Shown here one piece after another: positions 23,403-29,969 of a stretch of 40,661 bases of DNA. A program made the translations under genes and the position numbers. The DNA comes from an uncultured Sphingomonadales bacterium (GTDB taxonomy: Bacteria; Pseudomonadota; Alphaproteobacteria; Sphingomonadales; Sphingomonadaceae), in the NCBI GenBank assembly GCA_903839675.1, contig CAIMDB010000024.1, forward strand, positions 1 to 40,661. Direction: 5' to 3'. Under the pieces are notes generated by a model that saw nothing but the letters and a program-made list of their open reading frames with translations, was not told where the DNA came from and made no database searches. Positions within the stretch are counted from its first letter, which is position 1; the number at the start of each line of letters is the position of its first letter.

Positions 23403-25529
23403 TTACTTGCCCTTGGCCTCCAGCGCCTTGTCTTCATTCGCCCGCCGGATCACGTACTGGCGGATGTTTTCAATCTGCTCGGCAGAATATTCGTCTTTCC
23501 AAGCGACCATGCCGTTTTCGGACAGGGCGCCATCATGGACGACCTTCTGCCACATCTTCGGGTCACCAAGGATGGCCGAGTGGCGCAGATCAGGGTTGAG
23601 CCCACCTGCAATCGCGGCATCGCCATGGCAGACGCTGCAGCTGTTCTGATAGGGGCTCATGCCCGCATCGGCCTGCGCCTTTGTGCCGGTGAACGGCGGC
23701 GGATCAAGAACCTGCTTGGCCTGCGGCGGTGGCGGTGGAAGTGTCGCTTTACCGCCAATCTTGAAGACGAGCAGGCGGCTGATGTTGCGCACGGAGCCGG
23801 ACTTGCTGGACAAAATGCCAGGGGCCACATCGTAAACGCCGCCCCAACCCACAAGGATCGCGACATATTGCACGCCCTTGACCGAATAAGTCATGGGGGC
23901 GGCGATCACGCCGGTCTGCGTCGGGAAGCTCCAGAGCTGCTTGCCATTGTCGGCCGTGTAGGCGCGGAATTCCCCGCCTGCTGTGCCCTGGAATACGAGG
24001 TTGCCTGCTGTTGCCAGCGTGCCGCCGTTGGACGGTCCAGGATGTTCAACGCGCCAGCGCGGCTTACCGGCAATTGGGTCCCACGCCAGCAGAGATCCTG
24101 TGGTACCTGCGGCTGCGGCCGCACGGATCGCGGGATCAGCCGGCATACCCATCTGGCCTGTATCGAGGCCAATCTGGAAACCGACCTTGCCGGGTTTCCA
24201 GCCCTTGGCAGCTGCGAAATAGGGCTGTGAGATTTCGTTGGCCGGAATGTAGACGAGGCCCGTTTTCGGGCTGTACGACATGGGCTGCCAGCTGTGCGCC
24301 CCCAGCGCGCCCGGCCAGCCGATATAGGGCTTTCCGGTGAGTTCATACCGCGCTTCCGGATTGACGTTTGGCTTGCCTGTGACCGGATCAAGGCCCGAGG
24401 CCCAAGTGATCAGCTTGGCAAAGGGCTTGCCGGAGATGAACTTGCCGGTCTTCGCGTCGAGAATGTAAAAGAAGCCGTTCTTCGGCGCATGCATGAGGAC
24501 GCGGGTGACCTTGCCGTTGACCGGCATGTCGGCAGCGATGATCTGCTGGTTGGAATCATAGTCCCAGCGGTCCTCCGGTGTTTCCTGGAAGTGCCAGACA
24601 TATTCGCCGGTATCGGCGTTCACAGCAACAATGGAGGCCGTGTACAGGCTGTCGCCACCCTTGCCGCCACGGGCATTGGGGTTCCATGGTTCCGCATTGG
24701 CCGTGCCGAAATAGATGAGGTTGGTCGTGGGATCATAAGTGATCGAATCCCAAACCGTGCCGCCGCCGCCATTCTTCCAGGCGTCGGGCGCCCAGGTCTT
24801 GGCGGCCGCTTCCAGATGCTTGCCTTCAAACGGCTTCGATGGATCACCGGGAACCGTGTAGAAGCGCCAGGCTTCTTCACCGCTTTCGGCGTCATAGGCC
24901 GCGAGGTAGCCGCGCGTGATGTACTCAGCGCCAGCAGAGCCGATGAGGACCTTGCCCTTCACGATGCGCGGCGCGCCTGTGATGGCCATGTTGGATCCCT
25001 GTGGGATCGTCATCTTGTCCCACATCACCTTGCCGGTGTCGGCGTTCAATGCGACCAGACGGCCATCAAGCGTGCCGACATAGACGCGGCCCTTATAGAC
25101 AGCGACGCCGCGATTGACGGCGTCGCAGCAAACATCAACCAGCTTGGCGCGCGGCACCTTGGGGTCATATTCCCACAGCTTCTTGCCTGTGGCGGCATCA
25201 TAGGCCTTCACCATCGACCATGCGGTCGAGATGTACATGATGCCGTCGACGACGATGGGGGTCGCTTCCTGTCCGCGCGCGGTATCCAGATCAGACGACC
25301 ATTCAAGGCCAAGCTGGGCGACATTCTGATCGGAGACCAGTGTCAGCGGGGAAAAGCGTTGCTCGTCCATGGTGCGGCCATAAGACAGCCAATCGGCGCC
25401 ATCCGGGCTACCCGCAGCGAGGCGTGCATCATCGACATTGGCGTTCTTGCCGCCCTGTTCGGCGCAACCAGCCAAGGCCATTGCGACCAGCGCAACAGCC
25501 GTTCCCAAAACAAGCGAACGAGATTTCAT
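23403..25529 (-). CDS. PQQ-dependent quinohaemoprotein alcohol dehydrogenase, predicted lipoprotein
   Basis: A 708-residue oxidoreductase with an eight-bladed PQQ propeller and a C-terminal cytochrome c domain. It would oxidise an alcohol in the periplasm and pass electrons through PQQ and haem to the respiratory chain. Visible: adjacent cysteines C134-C135 (VDVCCDA, the disulfide ring near PQQ), catalytic Asp in RWDYDSNQQ (D323), several blade motifs (AYDAATGKKLWEY, ALNADTGKVMW), haem site CSVCH (631-635) and a likely axial Met 674. D325, two residues after D323, is the position linked to lanthanide use. The signal peptide ends in LAGC (Cys 22), so it is probably lipid-anchored. The start at 25529 has GGAGGGG upstream; longer open frame sequence before it looks non-coding. 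No cytochrome partner or PQQ-synthesis genes are nearby. Confidence 0.92.
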   Translation of the reverse strand: MKSRSLVLGTAVALVAMALAGCAEQGGKNANVDDARLAAGSPDGADWLSYGRTMDEQRFSPLTLVSDQNVAQLGLEWSSDLDTARGQEATPIVVDGIMYISTAWSMVKAYDAATGKKLWEYDPKVPRAKLVDVCCDAVNRGVAVYKGRVYVGTLDGRLVALNADTGKVMWDKMTIPQGSNMAITGAPRIVKGKVLIGSAGAEYITRGYLAAYDAESGEEAWRFYTVPGDPSKPFEGKHLEAAAKTWAPDAWKNGGGGTVWDSITYDPTTNLIYFGTANAEPWNPNARGGKGGDSLYTASIVAVNADTGEYVWHFQETPEDRWDYDSNQQIIAADMPVNGKVTRVLMHAPKNGFFYILDAKTGKFISGKPFAKLITWASGLDPVTGKPNVNPEARYELTGKPYIGWPGALGAHSWQPMSYSPKTGLVYIPANEISQPYFAAAKGWKPGKVGFQIGLDTGQMGMPADPAIRAAAAAGTTGSLLAWDPIAGKPRWRVEHPGPSNGGTLATAGNLVFQGTAGGEFRAYTADNGKQLWSFPTQTGVIAAPMTYSVKGVQYVAILVGWGGVYDVAPGILSSKSGSVRNISRLLVFKIGGKATLPPPPPQAKQVLDPPPFTGTKAQADAGMSPYQNSCSVCHGDAAIAGGLNPDLRHSAILGDPKMWQKVVHDGALSENGMVAWKDEYSAEQIENIRQYVIRRANEDKALEAKGK

Positions 25530-25684
25530 GTGGAAACTACCCCTCCAACCTGAGCCGATTTTTCGGCAGCGTGCATCCAATAACGCGGGAGTCTGCGACT
25601 CTCTACTGGCGTCCTTGCCAGTGACCACGCTTGGATGCGAGGGGAAAATGCTTGGGACAGGGAAACTTCCCCGCCCCGTTTCAC

Positions 25685-25918
25685 TCAGTAATCAACGCCG
25701 GCTGCAATGGCTTCCAACTTGCGCAGCCGTTCCCGCAGATCGGCGATTTCAATGCGGCTTGTTGTGTTGGGCATGCTGGTGTCCTGTCCGCGGTGCGTGT
25801 CGATCTCGCAACGCTTCAACTCGACCCATTTGGTGAATGCGGCGAGGCTTACAAAGGAGGCAAGAGCCAGTCCGGCAAGGCTGGTGAGTGCAAGAATAAG
25901 CGTGGAGGCGTCAGTCAT
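25685..25918 (-). CDS. Small single-helix membrane protein, last gene of the psp operon
   Basis: A 77-residue protein with a membrane helix at about residues 6-28 (LILALTSLAGLALASFVSLAA), a basic segment, and a short C-terminal coiled-coil-like helix IEIADLRERLRKLEAIAAG. The layout is like its neighbours (helix plus coil), but the shared T-D and E-I-E motifs are missing, so it is the most diverged of the set. The ATG at 25918 follows GGGAGA; the frame is open for 19 more codons upstream but without a ribosome site. It starts 28 bp after the 81-residue gene. I do not recognise a family; it is probably a diverged PspB-like protein. Confidence 0.7.
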   Translation of the reverse strand: MTDASTLILALTSLAGLALASFVSLAAFTKWVELKRCEIDTHRGQDTSMPNTTSRIEIADLRERLRKLEAIAAGVDY

Positions 25919-25946
25919 GTCGGTTCTCCCTGAAAATCCGCTGCGA

Positions 25947-26192
25947 TCAACGCAGCTTTTCAATTTCGCGATCAAGGGCGACCGCGCTGTTGGTATCGGT
26001 GGCGAGGCGTTCCAGAACCGCGATCCGTTCTTTCAACTGCCTGATCTCGTCGCGCAGCTGGCGGCTCTCTGCATCATTGGGGGCGGCAACAGGATTGCCT
26101 TGACGGTCTTTGCGCAGGCCGTGCTTTGTGCGGAACATGCCGCCGATGGTCACAATTGCGACGATCAGGACAACCATTTCAAACGGGTTCAT
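25947..26192 (-). CDS. PspB-like small membrane/coiled-coil protein, copy 4
   Basis: An 81-residue protein: a membrane helix at about 4-20 (FEMVVLIVAIVTIGGMF), a basic FRTKHGLRKDRQG segment, then a coiled coil (about 43-81) with RIAVLERLATD and the ending EIEKLR. That ending is shared with three neighbouring genes. Size and layout match PspB (75 residues here), the inner-membrane Psp regulator, but it is not a close copy. An AAGGGAGA ribosome site precedes the ATG at 26192. It lies in the psp operon, so it is probably made on envelope stress. Exact role unknown. Confidence 0.75.
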   Translation of the reverse strand: MNPFEMVVLIVAIVTIGGMFRTKHGLRKDRQGNPVAAPNDAESRQLRDEIRQLKERIAVLERLATDTNSAVALDREIEKLR

Positions 26193-26227
26193 ATTGTGTC
26201 TCCCTTTAGGCGATGATTGTTTTTGGT

Positions 26228-26494
26228 TTAGTTGACGGGGCTATCGCGGAGCTGTTCGATCTCATCGGACAGGGCGACGCCCTTATCGGTGATGATCCGT
26301 TCCAGCACGCGGACCCGTTGTTCCAGCCGCTCGACATGCGATGCATATTGTGCGGCCTTCTCGGCGGTCATGGTGGTTTGCACCTGCAACTGCTTTTCCT
26401 TGAGCTCCATCATCTTGGTCACAGTGCGCGAGACGATGGCGACGATGGGGATCAGGAGCGCCAGGATCGGAATGAGAGCGAAGATGCCTTCCAT
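26228..26494 (-). CDS. PspB-like small membrane/coiled-coil protein, copy 3
   Basis: An 88-residue protein: membrane helix at about 4-22 (IFALIPILALLIPIVAIVS), then a long amphipathic and coiled-coil helix (MMELKEKQLQVQTTMTAEKA and on) that holds RVRVLERIITD and ends EIEQLRDSPVN. The VERLEQRVRVLERI stretch is close to the RLEDRMTTIERI part of the PspB gene in this operon. It is the copy with the longest basic/acidic linker helix. The AAGGA ribosome site is 8-10 bases before the ATG at 26494. Likely a stress-induced partner or modulator in the Psp complex (inference). Confidence 0.75.
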   Translation of the reverse strand: MEGIFALIPILALLIPIVAIVSRTVTKMMELKEKQLQVQTTMTAEKAAQYASHVERLEQRVRVLERIITDKGVALSDEIEQLRDSPVN

Positions 26495-26508
26495 TATTGT
26501 GGTCCTTC

Positions 26509-26838
26509 TCAGTTCGCTTTGCCGCGGAGCTGTTCGATCTCGCGGTTGAGGGCATGGGCTTCATCGGTCACGATGCGTTCGACATTGGCGAGGCGGTCTT
26601 TGACCGAGCCAAGCTCAGCGCGGAGCTGCGCATTTTCCTGACTCAAGAGCTTGATGCGTTCCAGCTCCTCCGTCGTCTGGCGGGGATAGATCGCCTTTCC
26701 CCAGCTGTTTTCCAGCGGATAGCCGTTCTTGATCCGCAGCCAGGTGGTGAAGATCCAGCCAACCACACCGAGAAAGCCGATGCTGATGGCCATAAGGGCG
26801 ATATAGGGGATGAAAGGGGCGATTTCGGTTTCGATCAT
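26509..26838 (-). CDS. PspB-like small membrane/coiled-coil protein, copy 2
   Basis: A 109-residue protein, the longest of the set. A membrane helix at about 10-34 (YIALMAISIGFLGVVGWIF) leads into WLRIKNGYPLENSWG, which matches WIRARHGYPVEGEWG in the next gene upstream; these two are clear paralogues. A coiled coil (about 56-105) contains RLANVERIVTD and ends EIEQLRGKAN. The ribosome site AAGGA precedes the ATG at 26838. It is 14 bp ahead of the 88-residue gene and 10 bp behind the 96-residue gene, so the three are tightly packed. No named family recognised. Confidence 0.75.
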   Translation of the reverse strand: MIETEIAPFIPYIALMAISIGFLGVVGWIFTTWLRIKNGYPLENSWGKAIYPRQTTEELERIKLLSQENAQLRAELGSVKDRLANVERIVTDEAHALNREIEQLRGKAN

Positions 26839-26848
26839 GTCGCTGTCC

Positions 26849-27139
26849 TTATTTCAGGCGTTCGATTTCAGCGGTCAGGCGGGAAGGCGCATCGGTGGCG
26901 ATGCGCTCCAGAACCGCGATCCGCTCCTCCAGCCGGCTGACCTGTCCGGTCAGGCGCTCATTCTCCGAAGAGAGGAGGCTGATCTTGCGCTCGGCATCCG
27001 GGTCGGACTTTGAGACGGTGCCGCCCCATTCGCCTTCCACCGGATAGCCATGGCGGGCGCGGATCCAGCTGGTGGCAACCCAGCCGAGGGTGCTGATGGC
27101 GATGATCGCCAAGACGAATGTTGGTCCACCCCATTCCAT
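26849..27139 (-). CDS. PspB-like small membrane/coiled-coil protein, copy 1
   Basis: A 96-residue protein with a membrane helix at about 7-25 (TFVLAIIAISTLGWVATSW), the segment WIRARHGYPVEGEWG shared with the 109-residue paralogue, and a heptad-like coiled coil (about 50-96: ISLLSSENERLTGQVSRLEE) containing RIAVLERIATD and ending EIERLK. A strong AGGAGGAG ribosome site precedes the ATG at 27139. It begins 29 bp after pspC. Expected to sit in the inner membrane with the coil in the cytoplasm, where PspA and PspF act, by analogy with PspB; this is inference. Confidence 0.75.
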   Translation of the reverse strand: MEWGGPTFVLAIIAISTLGWVATSWIRARHGYPVEGEWGGTVSKSDPDAERKISLLSSENERLTGQVSRLEERIAVLERIATDAPSRLTAEIERLK

Positions 27140-27168: not shown

Positions 27169-27549
27169 TTACTTCAGGTTGTCGATTTCGTCGGCAAGGC
27201 GGCTGTTGCGGCTGGTATAGTGCGTTTCAGCAGCGGCCATGCGGCGGTCAATGTCGCGTAGTTTGGAACGGACGTCGCGCGTCGTGCGGGCCGGGGACTG
27301 GCGGACACCCTGCCAGAATTCCTTTTCCGCTTTGTCCTCATACAGGCCGTAGGGCTTGTCATTGGCGACCCATGCCGTCACCCAATAGGCGATCAGCGTC
27401 CAAGGGAAGCCACCCAGCAGGGTGAAAATGACCGTGCCGACGCGAACCCAGGTGATGTCGATGCCGGTGTATTCGGCAATCCCGGAGCAGACGCCCAGCC
27501 ATTTGGCGTTCTGTTTGTCGAGGTAGAATTTGGTGCGGCTTGCAGACAT
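27169..27549 (-). CDS. pspC: Phage shock protein C
   Basis: A 126-residue inner-membrane protein. Residues 1-62 are the PspC domain: FYLDKQNAKWLGVCSGIAEY, TGIDITWVRVGTVIF, then a hydrophobic part through PWTLIAYWVTAWV. PspC with PspB senses envelope stress and releases PspA from PspF in enterobacteria. The C-terminal half is charged and helical, and its last residues (LADEIDNLK) resemble the ending of the neighbouring PspB-like proteins. A CAGGAG ribosome site precedes the ATG at 27549. It lies 36 bp after pspB. Confidence 0.93.
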   Translation of the reverse strand: MSASRTKFYLDKQNAKWLGVCSGIAEYTGIDITWVRVGTVIFTLLGGFPWTLIAYWVTAWVANDKPYGLYEDKAEKEFWQGVRQSPARTTRDVRSKLRDIDRRMAAAETHYTSRNSRLADEIDNLK

Positions 27550-27585: not shown

Positions 27586-27813
27586 TTAGGCGCCCTTCTT
27601 CCAGTTTGGATCGTCGGCGGCGATGATGCGTTCGATCGTGGTCATCCGGTCTTCGAGGCGGCGGGCGAGATCATAGAGCTCATCCAGCAGGTTCTCGTCT
27701 TCGCGCGTGAGCGTCGCGGCGGTCCGCCAACGGGTCATGTAGTGGAGAACCAGCCAAGGCAGCCCAACGAAAATGGACGTGATGGCGATGAGGGGAACGA
27801 CAACGTCTTCCAT
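27586..27813 (-). CDS. pspB: Phage shock protein B
   Basis: A 75-residue inner-membrane protein with the normal PspB length. A membrane helix at about 5-26 is followed by HYMTRWRTAATLTREDENLL, and a coiled coil with LARRLEDRMTTIERI and the PspB-typical ending DDPNWKK. With PspC it relays envelope stress to PspA. The ATG at 27813 lies 4 bp after the pspA stop, with AAGG upstream inside the end of pspA, so translation is coupled. It is the canonical member against which the five downstream small genes can be compared. Confidence 0.92.
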   Translation of the reverse strand: MEDVVVPLIAITSIFVGLPWLVLHYMTRWRTAATLTREDENLLDELYDLARRLEDRMTTIERIIAADDPNWKKGA

Positions 27814-27817
27814 CGGA

Positions 27818-28483
27818 TCAACCCTTCTTCACGGCAGCCTTCAGGGCTTCCAGTTCGGCGTCGACCTTTTCGTTCGACTTTAGCTCGGCGATTTCCTCTT
27901 CGAGCGACTTGGGGGCGGCGCCCAGGCCAAGCGCATCGGCACGGCCTTCGGCGAGATCAACGCGGCGATCGAGCATGTCGAAGCGCGCAAAGGCCTCATC
28001 GACGCGGGTGCCGGCATAGGCTTCCCGAACGCGGATGCGGTTATTGGCCGCTTCCAAGCGGGTGGTGATCGTGTTCTGGCGGGCGCGGGCCTCACGCAGC
28101 TTAGCCTGGAGCTTGGAGATGTCTTCCTCATTGGCGCGCAGCGCATCATCAAGGACGGCGATTTCGCTCTTCAGCTGTTCGCCCATATCAACAGCCTTCT
28201 GGCGTTCGACGAGCGCGGCCTTGGCGAGGTCTTCACGGTCCTTGGAAAGCGCGAGTTCGGCCTTTTCCTTCCAGCTGTCCTGAAGGGTTTCCAGCTTCGC
28301 GATGTGGCGGCGCAGTTCTTTCTGGTCGGCGATGGTGCGGGCGGCGGAGGCGCGGACCTCGATCAGCGTTTCTTCCATTTCCATGATGATCATGCGGATC
28401 ATCTTGGCGGGGTCTTCGGCCTTATCGAGAAGGTCGGTGACGTTGGCGGCGATGATGTCGCGGGTGCGCGAGAAGATGCCCAT
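27818..28483 (-). CDS. pspA: Phage shock protein A
   Basis: A 221-residue peripheral membrane protein of the PspA/IM30 family, which binds stressed inner membrane and, when unstressed, inhibits PspF. It starts MGIFSRTRDIIAANVTDLLD (amphipathic membrane-binding helix), then EDPAKMIRMIIMEMEETLIE and long coiled coils (AARTIADQKELRRHIAKLE; DDALRANEEDISKLQAKLRE) to the end. The ATG at 28483 has AGGAG nine bases upstream; the open frame extends 25 codons further but in low-complexity sequence. It is separated from the upstream 51-residue gene by 120 bp with two strong hairpins. Confidence 0.95.
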   Translation of the reverse strand: MGIFSRTRDIIAANVTDLLDKAEDPAKMIRMIIMEMEETLIEVRASAARTIADQKELRRHIAKLETLQDSWKEKAELALSKDREDLAKAALVERQKAVDMGEQLKSEIAVLDDALRANEEDISKLQAKLREARARQNTITTRLEAANNRIRVREAYAGTRVDEAFARFDMLDRRVDLAEGRADALGLGAAPKSLEEEIAELKSNEKVDAELEALKAAVKKG

Positions 28484-28603: not shown

Positions 28604-28759
28604 TTATGCGAGCGGATAGGCCGACTGGGTCTGGACCGTCGCCGCATTCGCCTGACCGATGGGGCCGGCGGCGAAGAAGAGGCTGCTGGTGCTCACCAGG
28701 ATCGTTGCGACGATGGCGAGAACCGAGTTGCGGAAATCGAAAGAAGTGTAGCGTGTCAT
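28604..28759 (-). CDS. 51-residue signal-peptide/membrane protein, first gene after the psp promoter
   Basis: A small protein starting MTRYTSFDFRNSVLAIVATI with a hydrophobic stretch at about 13-33 and a possible signal peptidase cleavage at AANA-like GQANA|ATV, leaving a very short mature part (ATVQTQSAYPLA). It could be a secreted peptide or a single-helix membrane peptide. The ATG at 28759 has GGGAGA upstream; the open frame continues to 28867 but that runs through the promoter, so the short form is right. It begins about 54 bases after the predicted sigma-54 start site. I do not recognise a named family. Position as first gene suggests strong stress induction. Confidence 0.7.
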   Translation of the reverse strand: MTRYTSFDFRNSVLAIVATILVSTSSLFFAAGPIGQANAATVQTQSAYPLA

Positions 28760-28823: not shown

Positions 28824-28839
28824 AGCATGGACCGTGCCA
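28824..28839 (-). promoter_or_regulatory. Sigma-54 (-24/-12) promoter of the psp operon
   Basis: On the minus strand TGGCACGGTCCATGCT matches the consensus TGGCACG-N4-TTGCW at all but one position, with the required 10 bases between GG and GC. It points at the 51-residue gene and pspA, lies next to the gene for PspF (a sigma-54 activator), and predicts a start near 28813. Confidence 0.88.
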
Positions 28840-28897: not shown

Positions 28898-28940
28898 TGA
28901 GCTATTGCTGAATGTTAGGAAAATATACTAATGTTTGGCA

Positions 28941-29969
28941 ATGGAGCGCGACAATCAATTCATCGGGCAATCGCTCGCCTTTCTCGACAGCGTCGAACGC
29001 GTCAGCAGGGCGGCCCATCTCAACCGACCGGTGCTCGTCATCGGGGAGCGCGGGACGGGTAAGGAACTGGTGGCCGAACGCCTTCACCGCCTGAGCACGC
29101 GCTGGGACGGGCCGTTTGTGGCCATGAACTGCGCGGCGCTGACCGAAACGCTGATCGAGGCGGAATTGTTCGGCCATGAGGCCGGTGCCTTCACCGGCGC
29201 CACCCGCGCGCGGACGGGGCGTTTTGAAGAGGCGGATGGTGGCACGCTCTTCCTCGATGAACTCGGTACGCTGTCAGCGGGCGCGCAGGAACGGCTGCTG
29301 CGCGCGGTTGAATATGGGGAGATTACCCGCATCGGCGCGAACAAGCCGGTGCGCGTTGATGTGCGCATTGTCGCGGCCACCAATGAGCATCTGCCCGCCA
29401 TGGTCGATAACGGACGGTTCCGCGCTGATCTTCTAGACCGGCTATCCTTCGACGTGATTACCCTGCCGCCCCTGCGCGCGCGCGACGGGGATATTGCCCA
29501 ATTGGCTGACTTTTTCGGGCGACGCATGGCGGCTGAACTGGATTGGCCGCGCTGGCCGGGCTTTGATCTTGAGGCGATGGCAGAGATGGAAGCCTATCCC
29601 TGGCCGGGCAATATCCGTGAGTTGCGCAATGTGGCGGAGCGGGCGGTCTATCGCTGGGATGACACGAGCCTTCCGGTCGGCAACATCGTCTTCGATCCGT
29701 TCGTGTCGCCTTGGCAACCGGTGACGGGTCAGGGGCTGGCAGCAACAGCGCCTGCAGACCTGACCGCGAATGATCCCGGCCCCTCCGTTGCGTTAAGTAA
29801 GCCGGGCGACTTCCGAGCCGCGGTCCACGCTTATGAGCGGTCCTTACTGGAAGAAGCGCTCCGTCGGCACCGCCACAACCAGCGCGCGACAGCTAAGGCG
29901 CTTGGGCTGACCTATGATCAGCTGCGGCATTGTTTGAAGAAACACGGGTTGCTCGAGGCGGCGAATTAA
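28941..29969 (+). CDS. pspF: Phage shock operon transcriptional activator
   Basis: A 342-residue sigma-54-dependent AAA+ activator without an N-terminal sensor domain, as expected for PspF, which is instead inhibited by PspA. Walker A GERGTGKE (35-42), the sigma-54 contact loop GAFTGA (82-87), Walker B TLFLDELG, and the arginine-finger region [14 protein letters not shown] follow the family order. A C-terminal Fis-type helix-turn-helix is [20 protein letters not shown]. The ATG at 28941 ([11 protein letters not shown]) fits the family start; a TTG two codons earlier is possible, and the ribosome site is weak. It is divergent from the psp operon across the promoter region. Family B repeat copy 4 begins just after its stop. 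Confidence 0.93.

Follow-up and report, generated by a model that had tools for sequence, protein, structure and literature searches.

Why does a psp operon carry a row of further small membrane-protein genes behind pspC, what are these proteins related to, and what could they add to the Psp stress response? These questions are raised by a stretch of 40,661 nucleotides from an uncultured Sphingomonadales bacterium of the family Sphingomonadaceae, which as a whole we call the window. Most of what has been established on how PspA is brought to the membrane comes from enterobacteria, which have a single PspB and a single PspC.

Five small genes behind pspC

The psp genes of the window lie on the minus strand. 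pspA (27818 to 28483, with the ATG at 28483 read by eye and the PspA_IM30 match at 27833-28480) is followed by pspB (27586 to 27813, 75 codons), by pspC (27169 to 27549, 126 codons) and then by five successive open reading frames, X1 (26849 to 27139, 96 codons), X2 (26509 to 26838, 109 codons), X3 (26228 to 26494, 88 codons), X4 (25947 to 26192, 81 codons) and X5 (25685 to 25918, 77 codons from the ATG at 25918; the list of reading frames gives 96 codons from an upstream TTG). The coordinates give gaps of 29, 10, 14, 35 and 28 bp, starting at pspC, and a purine-rich stretch resembling a ribosome site lies ca. 7-8 bp 5' of every X ATG, which confirms the five small genes, 10-35 bp apart, of a preliminary description of this DNA. 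Upstream of pspA there is a sigma-54-like -24/-12 site (TGGCAC-N5-ATGC, 28825 to 28839, minus strand, 9/10 bases), and beyond it a divergent pspF-type activator gene on the plus strand (28935 to 29969, a reading frame from TTG with an uncertain start and AAA+ motifs seen by eye); one annotated record has pspF in the same arrangement. Between the site and pspA lies a minus-strand frame of 51 codons (28604 to 28759) with a signal-like N-terminus by eye, and another locus (L308) has an annotated 48-codon hypothetical protein at the same place. Behind X5, a large minus-strand frame (23403-25628) resembles by eye a dehydrogenase of the PQQ type and contains CSVCH, a haem-like motif; a similar frame stands behind the array in L031, L032, L034, L038 and L041, and SufE-like genes are found there in many other genera.

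The promoter site is a general feature of these loci. A TGGCAC-N5-TTGC site with at least 9/10 bases was found upstream of pspA in 89 of 94 pspB loci (with over 500 bp available for the search in 92 of them), compared to 35 of 4200 stretches of 250 bp taken at random from other loci, where the scan was a little stricter. Across 74 complete arrays of the family, the gaps 3' of pspC were 60 bp or less in 302 of 313 cases, and 102 gene pairs abutted or overlapped. Median dN/dS within the genus was 0.190 for X1 (19 of 28 pairs unsaturated), 0.152 for X2 (17 of 28), 0.206 for X3 (6 of 10), 0.225 for X4 (32 of 45) and 0.188 for X5 (27 of 36), with 0.135 for pspB (55 of 66) and 0.148 for pspC (62 of 66). 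As far as sequence can tell, X1 to X5 are real, selected members of the operon, because a sigma-54 site precedes pspA and their dN/dS values are 0.15-0.23; they would be co-transcribed with pspA, pspB and pspC.

All five proteins are laid out as PspB is, with a single membrane helix at the N-terminus and a coil in the cytoplasm, as judged by the charge count and, for X4 and X5, by predicted models with a membrane helix and a second helix (pLDDT 72 and 78, a modest confidence). Lysine and arginine are more frequent behind the membrane helix than before it in 79/79 X4, 72/72 X5, 59/64 X3, 41/44 X1 and 43/50 X2 sequences, charges that place the coils in the cytoplasm. The preliminary description had also picked out a motif common to four of the proteins, and this was borne out: R-x-x-x-[LV]-E-R-[IL]-x-T-D, and after it E-I-E-x-L-[RK], can be read in X1 to X4 and is absent from X5. 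X1 and X2 share in addition a GYP[LV]E..WG segment between helix and coil (GYPVEGEWG in X1, the coil of which ends in EIERLK, and GYPLENSWG in X2), and X5 has a near-invariant tail of its own, RIE-ADLKERIRKLEAIA-GVD.

Apparent kinship to PspB and to the PspC tail

The same description had called the five genes extra PspB-like genes, which turned out to hold in part. None of them reaches the cut-off of the Pfam or NCBIfam models for PspB. With PF06667 (gathering score 25.6 bits) X4 scored 15.1, X1 11.8 and X3 10.3 bits vs. 88.5 for the PspB of the same genome, and with TIGR02976 (cut-off 51.7 bits) X3 scored 23.8, X4 21.8 and X1 11.3 vs. 92.4; X2 and X5 gave zero matches to either model up to E 1, and none of X1 to X5 matched the PspC domain PF04024 up to the same value. 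At the level of profiles, on the other hand, X1 to X4 are related to each other and appear to be related to PspB. Five of their six pairs (all except X2 with X3) scored 98.8-99.9% over 81-95 columns against 0.2-15.8% for reversed controls, so the claimed mutual homology of these four does go beyond coil composition. Against PspB from outside the family of the window X1 scored 94.1, X2 72.7, X3 96.8 and X4 92.3%, X3 aligning over 60 columns that include the membrane helix, and against PspB from inside the family the values were 91.8, 71.1, 78.9 and 46.7%. However, the cytoplasmic tail of PspC (TIGR02978 positions ca. 72-121) appears about as near, with 36-44 columns of the coil aligned and scores for X1 to X4 of 71.4, 87.0, 87.7 and 70.6% with tails from outside the family and of 91.5, 95.4, 77.8 and 89.7% with those from inside it. 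Among the reversed profiles of these comparisons X2 against the family's PspC tail was an exception (60.5%), the others reaching at most 15.8%. A profile built without any PspB or PspC and run against the window's own genome recovered X1 to X4 at E ca. 1e-25, followed by the PspC tail (E 0.0034), PspB (E 0.042) and an unrelated place (0.38).

X5 has to be considered apart. Its profile matched X4 (93.6%) and the orphan relatives, that is, similar genes away from pspB in other families (95.2%), with no direct link to PspB (6.8 and 1.3%) or to the PspC tail (2.7 and 0.7%), and it is by these two connections only that it joins the others at the sequence level. From such comparisons X1 to X4 are one family, about equally close to the PspC tail and to PspB, and because of this pattern they look like a third branch beside the two, with X5 as a divergent member. 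The likeness to PspB (small size, one N-terminal membrane helix, a cytoplasmic coil with R-x-x-x-[LI]-E-R-I, the same operon) is accompanied by differences, since there are many copies per operon and the ends of X1 to X4 are longer and of the PspC kind (L..EI..L), unlike those of PspB; in the final 27 residues X1 and the PspC of the same genome are identical at 11 (41%). From PspC itself they differ in being encoded by genes of their own, with their own membrane helix and without the PspC domain. As small additional Psp proteins they also resemble, by description, PspD and PspG of enterobacteria. In another alphaproteobacterial genome (G285, locus L115) two genes come after pspC, one of 78 codons with a PspC-like end and one of 73 codons with a PspB-like end, both as seen by eye, the latter scoring 64 bits with the PspB profile.

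Other origins for this similarity were tried and set aside. Coil composition alone does not fit the low values of the reversed profiles and of the FtsB controls, the exceptions being the X2 value already given and, for the orphans, 23.8% reversed against Y1 (a sixth X type) and 32.4% against FtsB. The division proteins of the FtsB/DivIC type were rejected on low profile scores: against 29 FtsB-type sequences (PF04977 members) X1 reached 17.4, X2 3.1, X3 22.5 and X4 5.2%, and all X types together ranged from 0.6 to 22.5%. We accepted no relative of solved structure; PspC and PspB gave one match each (E 0.97 and 0.34), and the 45 matches of the X1-X4 profile, the best at E 0.0069, were to prefoldin and other coils.

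Arrays in the family and unlinked relatives beyond it

The window's genome and its relatives make up a set of 60, of which 53 had PspB, and the 52 other PspB loci were fetched. Among the 53, 34 belong to the window's family, and three of these were cut by contig ends. All the 31 uncut loci, which were thus chosen for PspB, carry one to eight X genes 3' of pspC, with X4 in 31, X5 in 29 and pspB itself beside the array in 31. At one of the two X5-less loci (L039, genome G010) a single frame of 165 codons takes in both X4 and X5, either a fusion or an assembly error. Conservation beyond a single strain, which the preliminary description had put forward as a check, is therefore plain: X5 was detected in 131 of 149 family genomes and 76 of 89 genera (in G475 only at E 3.4e-6), and its pattern gave at least 540 confirmed cases among the 594 matches listed, the best 80 loci kept including Chakrabartia, Sphingomonas, Sphingobium, Sphingopyxis, Qipengyuania and Stakelama. 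Elsewhere in the order, two of 19 psp loci (L073 and L081, family f8) have an X4-like gene; there the gene next to pspC is again of PspC type but short (78-84 codons), and the one X4-like gene and a longer reading frame come after it.

The make-up of the arrays is variable within a fixed frame. The 74 complete arrays contain from one to eight X genes, four being the commonest number (23 arrays) and five the next (19); X5 is terminal in 71 of the 74 and X4 penultimate in 67 of the 71 arrays with at least two genes, while the presence of X1, X2, X3 and Y1 varies from array to array. The set of 77 starting loci included 39 picked for X5 and four for a match to X1-X4, so the rates of X genes in it are biased; L035, L036 and L062, which contig ends truncate, and L141, with an X5-like gene outside psp, were left out of the counts. 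Two side observations concern the same loci. In L039, L040, L044 and L060 an additional gene of 62-75 codons between pspB and pspC has the PspC domain and lacks the tail, and in L043 and L055 adjoining X genes have near-identical ends by eye, with GVPL among the shared elements, as gene conversion or a recent duplication would leave them.

Would the different types detect different stresses, as the preliminary description supposed, their membrane helices perceiving different insults and passing them on to a common output by the conserved coil? The types are old lineages (in the tree X2, X5 and Y1 are clades with support of 0.98-1.0, and X3 and X4 are nearly so), the size of the set changes from one to eight, and within a type the membrane part is only 0.24-0.44 identical vs. 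0.49-0.68 for the coil. However, X1 forms no clade, and a plain anchor would show the same high divergence of the membrane helix, so that this divergence fits diversified sensors and also loosely constrained anchors. Because the coils are conserved and the membrane parts less so, PspB being even in both (0.56 and 0.57), what we have resembles a common module for binding that is mounted on anchors which can be swapped. The X proteins might still differ in what each of them senses, but we consider an array of diversified sensors quite improbable.

The 18 family genomes without X5 are informative: nine have PspB and X1-X4-like genes, seven have neither, one has PspB only (G469) and one X genes only (G461). 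The last has pspA, a PspC of 88 codons without the tail, X3 and X4, and no PspB match (locus L305). Two other loci, L145 and L162, have pspA, pspC and X5 with pspB absent at the locus. G461 bears on the reading in which X proteins act as PspB does, their coils binding the PspC tail and setting the OFF/ON threshold as a pool of mixed PspB-type partners. The size and topology are the same, X1, X3 and X4 come within 92.3-96.8% of PspB from other families (X3 with its membrane helix included), and in a 2015 study of Yersinia the PspC tail reportedly switched partners, bound to the PspB tail when the system was off and to PspA when it was on. Against this, the ends of X1 to X4 are of the PspC kind and not of the PspB kind, pspB is retained beside the array in every uncut locus (all of them chosen for PspB), and G461 keeps X3 and X4 with neither pspB nor a PspC tail, and we regard such a role as unlikely.

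Beyond the family the picture is one of single or paired genes. In 397 genomes of the phylum, at least 54 matched the X1-X4 profile at E 1e-5 (up to 13 candidates per genome were scored here, and up to 14 in the scan that gave the weaker cases below, so that misses are possible), and among the loci fetched 19 outside the window's family contain one or two X-like genes of 69-99 codons with no PspB or PspC match within the 6.5 kb around them. The preliminary description had derived the array from pspB by duplication, and this finds no support in that form: because related single genes exist elsewhere without PspB or PspC in 6.5 kb, the X genes are better seen as a separate family than as recent duplicates, a view with which the clades of X2, X5 and Y1 (X3 and X4 nearly, X1 not) agree. 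A phage or mobile origin was likewise tried and rejected, X1 having no match in phage records and none of 146 pattern matches of X5 in viral contigs being confirmed; the one plasmid record with X5 is an 880-kb replicon carrying the entire psp locus. Among weaker cases, 13 more genomes, outside the families with strong matches, gave X-like matches at E 2.5e-7 to 8.8e-4, and of four such loci fetched three have pspB and pspC and one (L117) nothing that we recognised. By eye, at 1704-2114 of L123 (G397, away from psp) a gene of 129 codons joins a cysteine-rich N-terminus resembling a zinc ribbon to a coil end of the X type, without a membrane helix, and in L299 (G886) and L113 (G212) a dUTPase-like gene is followed by two successive small helix-plus-coil genes, in a neighborhood without PspB or PspC matches.

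Unlinked as they are, these relatives keep company with PspB, an association that is unexpected. PspB was found in 89 and PspA in 164 of the 397 genomes, and X-like genes in 53 of the 86 with both, in one of the 78 with PspA and no PspB and in none of the 230 with neither (Fisher p 5.9e-19, uncorrected for phylogeny); X-like genes were also absent from three genomes in which PspA was missing and PspB was weak or alone. Outside the family all 32 genomes with X-like genes have PspB, leaving aside G869, the match of which adjoins its pspB and is, by coordinates, probably a PspC tail (we kept counts with and without it). By family, X-like genes accompany PspB in 20/20 genomes of f1, 3/3 of f5, 5/5 of f133, 15/16 of f176 and 5/5 of f209, vs. 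2/10 of f189 and 0/15 of f185. A sigma-54 site precedes one of 21 orphans, compared to the 35 of 4200 random stretches, and because most of them are without it they are probably not PspF targets.

One could argue from this that the X family is an independent one: its small proteins would shield the membrane or act as spacers in it, and would be carried along by the operon with no contact to PspA, PspB or PspC. The location of the relatives away from pspB, mostly without a promoter of this kind, would be in keeping with it, as would the X5 genes kept at two loci without pspB and the one outside psp in L141. But the coil is common to X, PspB and the PspC tail, all those 32 genomes with unlinked relatives have PspB, and inside the family X genes and PspB tend to be lost together, and we hold mere riders for quite unlikely. 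That the X proteins belong to the Psp system is, in our opinion, highly probable.

Proposed extra docking sites for PspA

The reading that we prefer takes X1 to X5 as membrane-anchored, PspC-tail-like coils that would give PspA extra docking sites, and we see the chances for and against it as balanced. It is drawn by analogy, because the layout of the X proteins equals that of the PspC helix-plus-tail fragment that binds PspA. According to the text of the Escherichia coli work, a piece of PspC from residue 40 to 119 (membrane helix and tail) is able to bind PspA and to induce psp, PspA is no longer bound when the zipper of the tail is mutated, and PspG binds PspC, with the tail placed in the periplasm and two topologies discussed (PMC3068692); in Yersinia the cytoplasmic C-terminus of PspC is described as binding PspA in the on state (PMC5596341). 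X1 to X5 would thus be additional membrane proteins of the Psp stress response, in a PspF/sigma-54-type operon with PspA, PspB and PspC, and the cytoplasmic helix of X1 to X4 is a coil such as PspB and the tail at the C-terminus of PspC have. Tethered to the inner membrane, these coils would bind PspA beside the PspC tail, so that after induction of the operon they would add docking sites for PspA and might help to draw it off PspF as a feedback. For X5, the tail of which is its own and hardly varies, the binding surface or the partner may be a different one. In favor of docking is G461, where X3 and X4 persist although pspB and the PspC tail are both missing; against it are X5, which has no direct profile link to PspB or PspC and is kept in L145 and L162 without pspB, and the PspB genomes without an X-like match, 15/15 in f185 and 8/10 in f189.

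Extra PspB-type genes in psp operons have been touched in print, in one clause, as "PspB duplicates" inside pspFABC operons with one example, AOL22920.1 (PMC11237479). The text on these is comparable to our array in that the genes are of PspB type and in the operon, and it comes without number, family, distribution, mechanism or orphans; AOL22920.1 may or may not be an X array. The part of PMC9239133 that was available has nothing on such arrays, and among the titles and abstract openings found in literature searches (mostly open-access text, without supplements) none names an array of the X type. Zymomonas mobilis is a member of the order of the window. Its pspA, pspB and pspC are reported to go up under ethanol and xylose, the X genes being unmentioned in the available text (PMC3495753, PMC8645129). 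In one annotated record three genes of the X kind behind pspC are called hypothetical protein, and therefore surveys based on existing models would miss them.

The extension of the psp operon in the window is thus confirmed, and it is widely conserved and under selection; we see it as varying a system already known and not as a new kind. In a broader and more tentative view, to which we give somewhat less than an even chance, an unnamed family of membrane-tethered, PspC-tail-like coils would serve PspABC systems as an auxiliary component in a number of proteobacterial families, some of which have it as unlinked single or paired genes and the sphingomonads as an operon array, re-shuffled and up to eight genes long, providing extra PspA receptors so that recruitment would not depend on PspC alone. 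The unlinked relatives that co-occur with PspB are possible Psp partners outside the sphingomonads. If X proteins do dock PspA, sphingomonads would run the response with one to eight additional receptors, and genomes like G461 would serve as natural experiments on the part of PspBC that is required.
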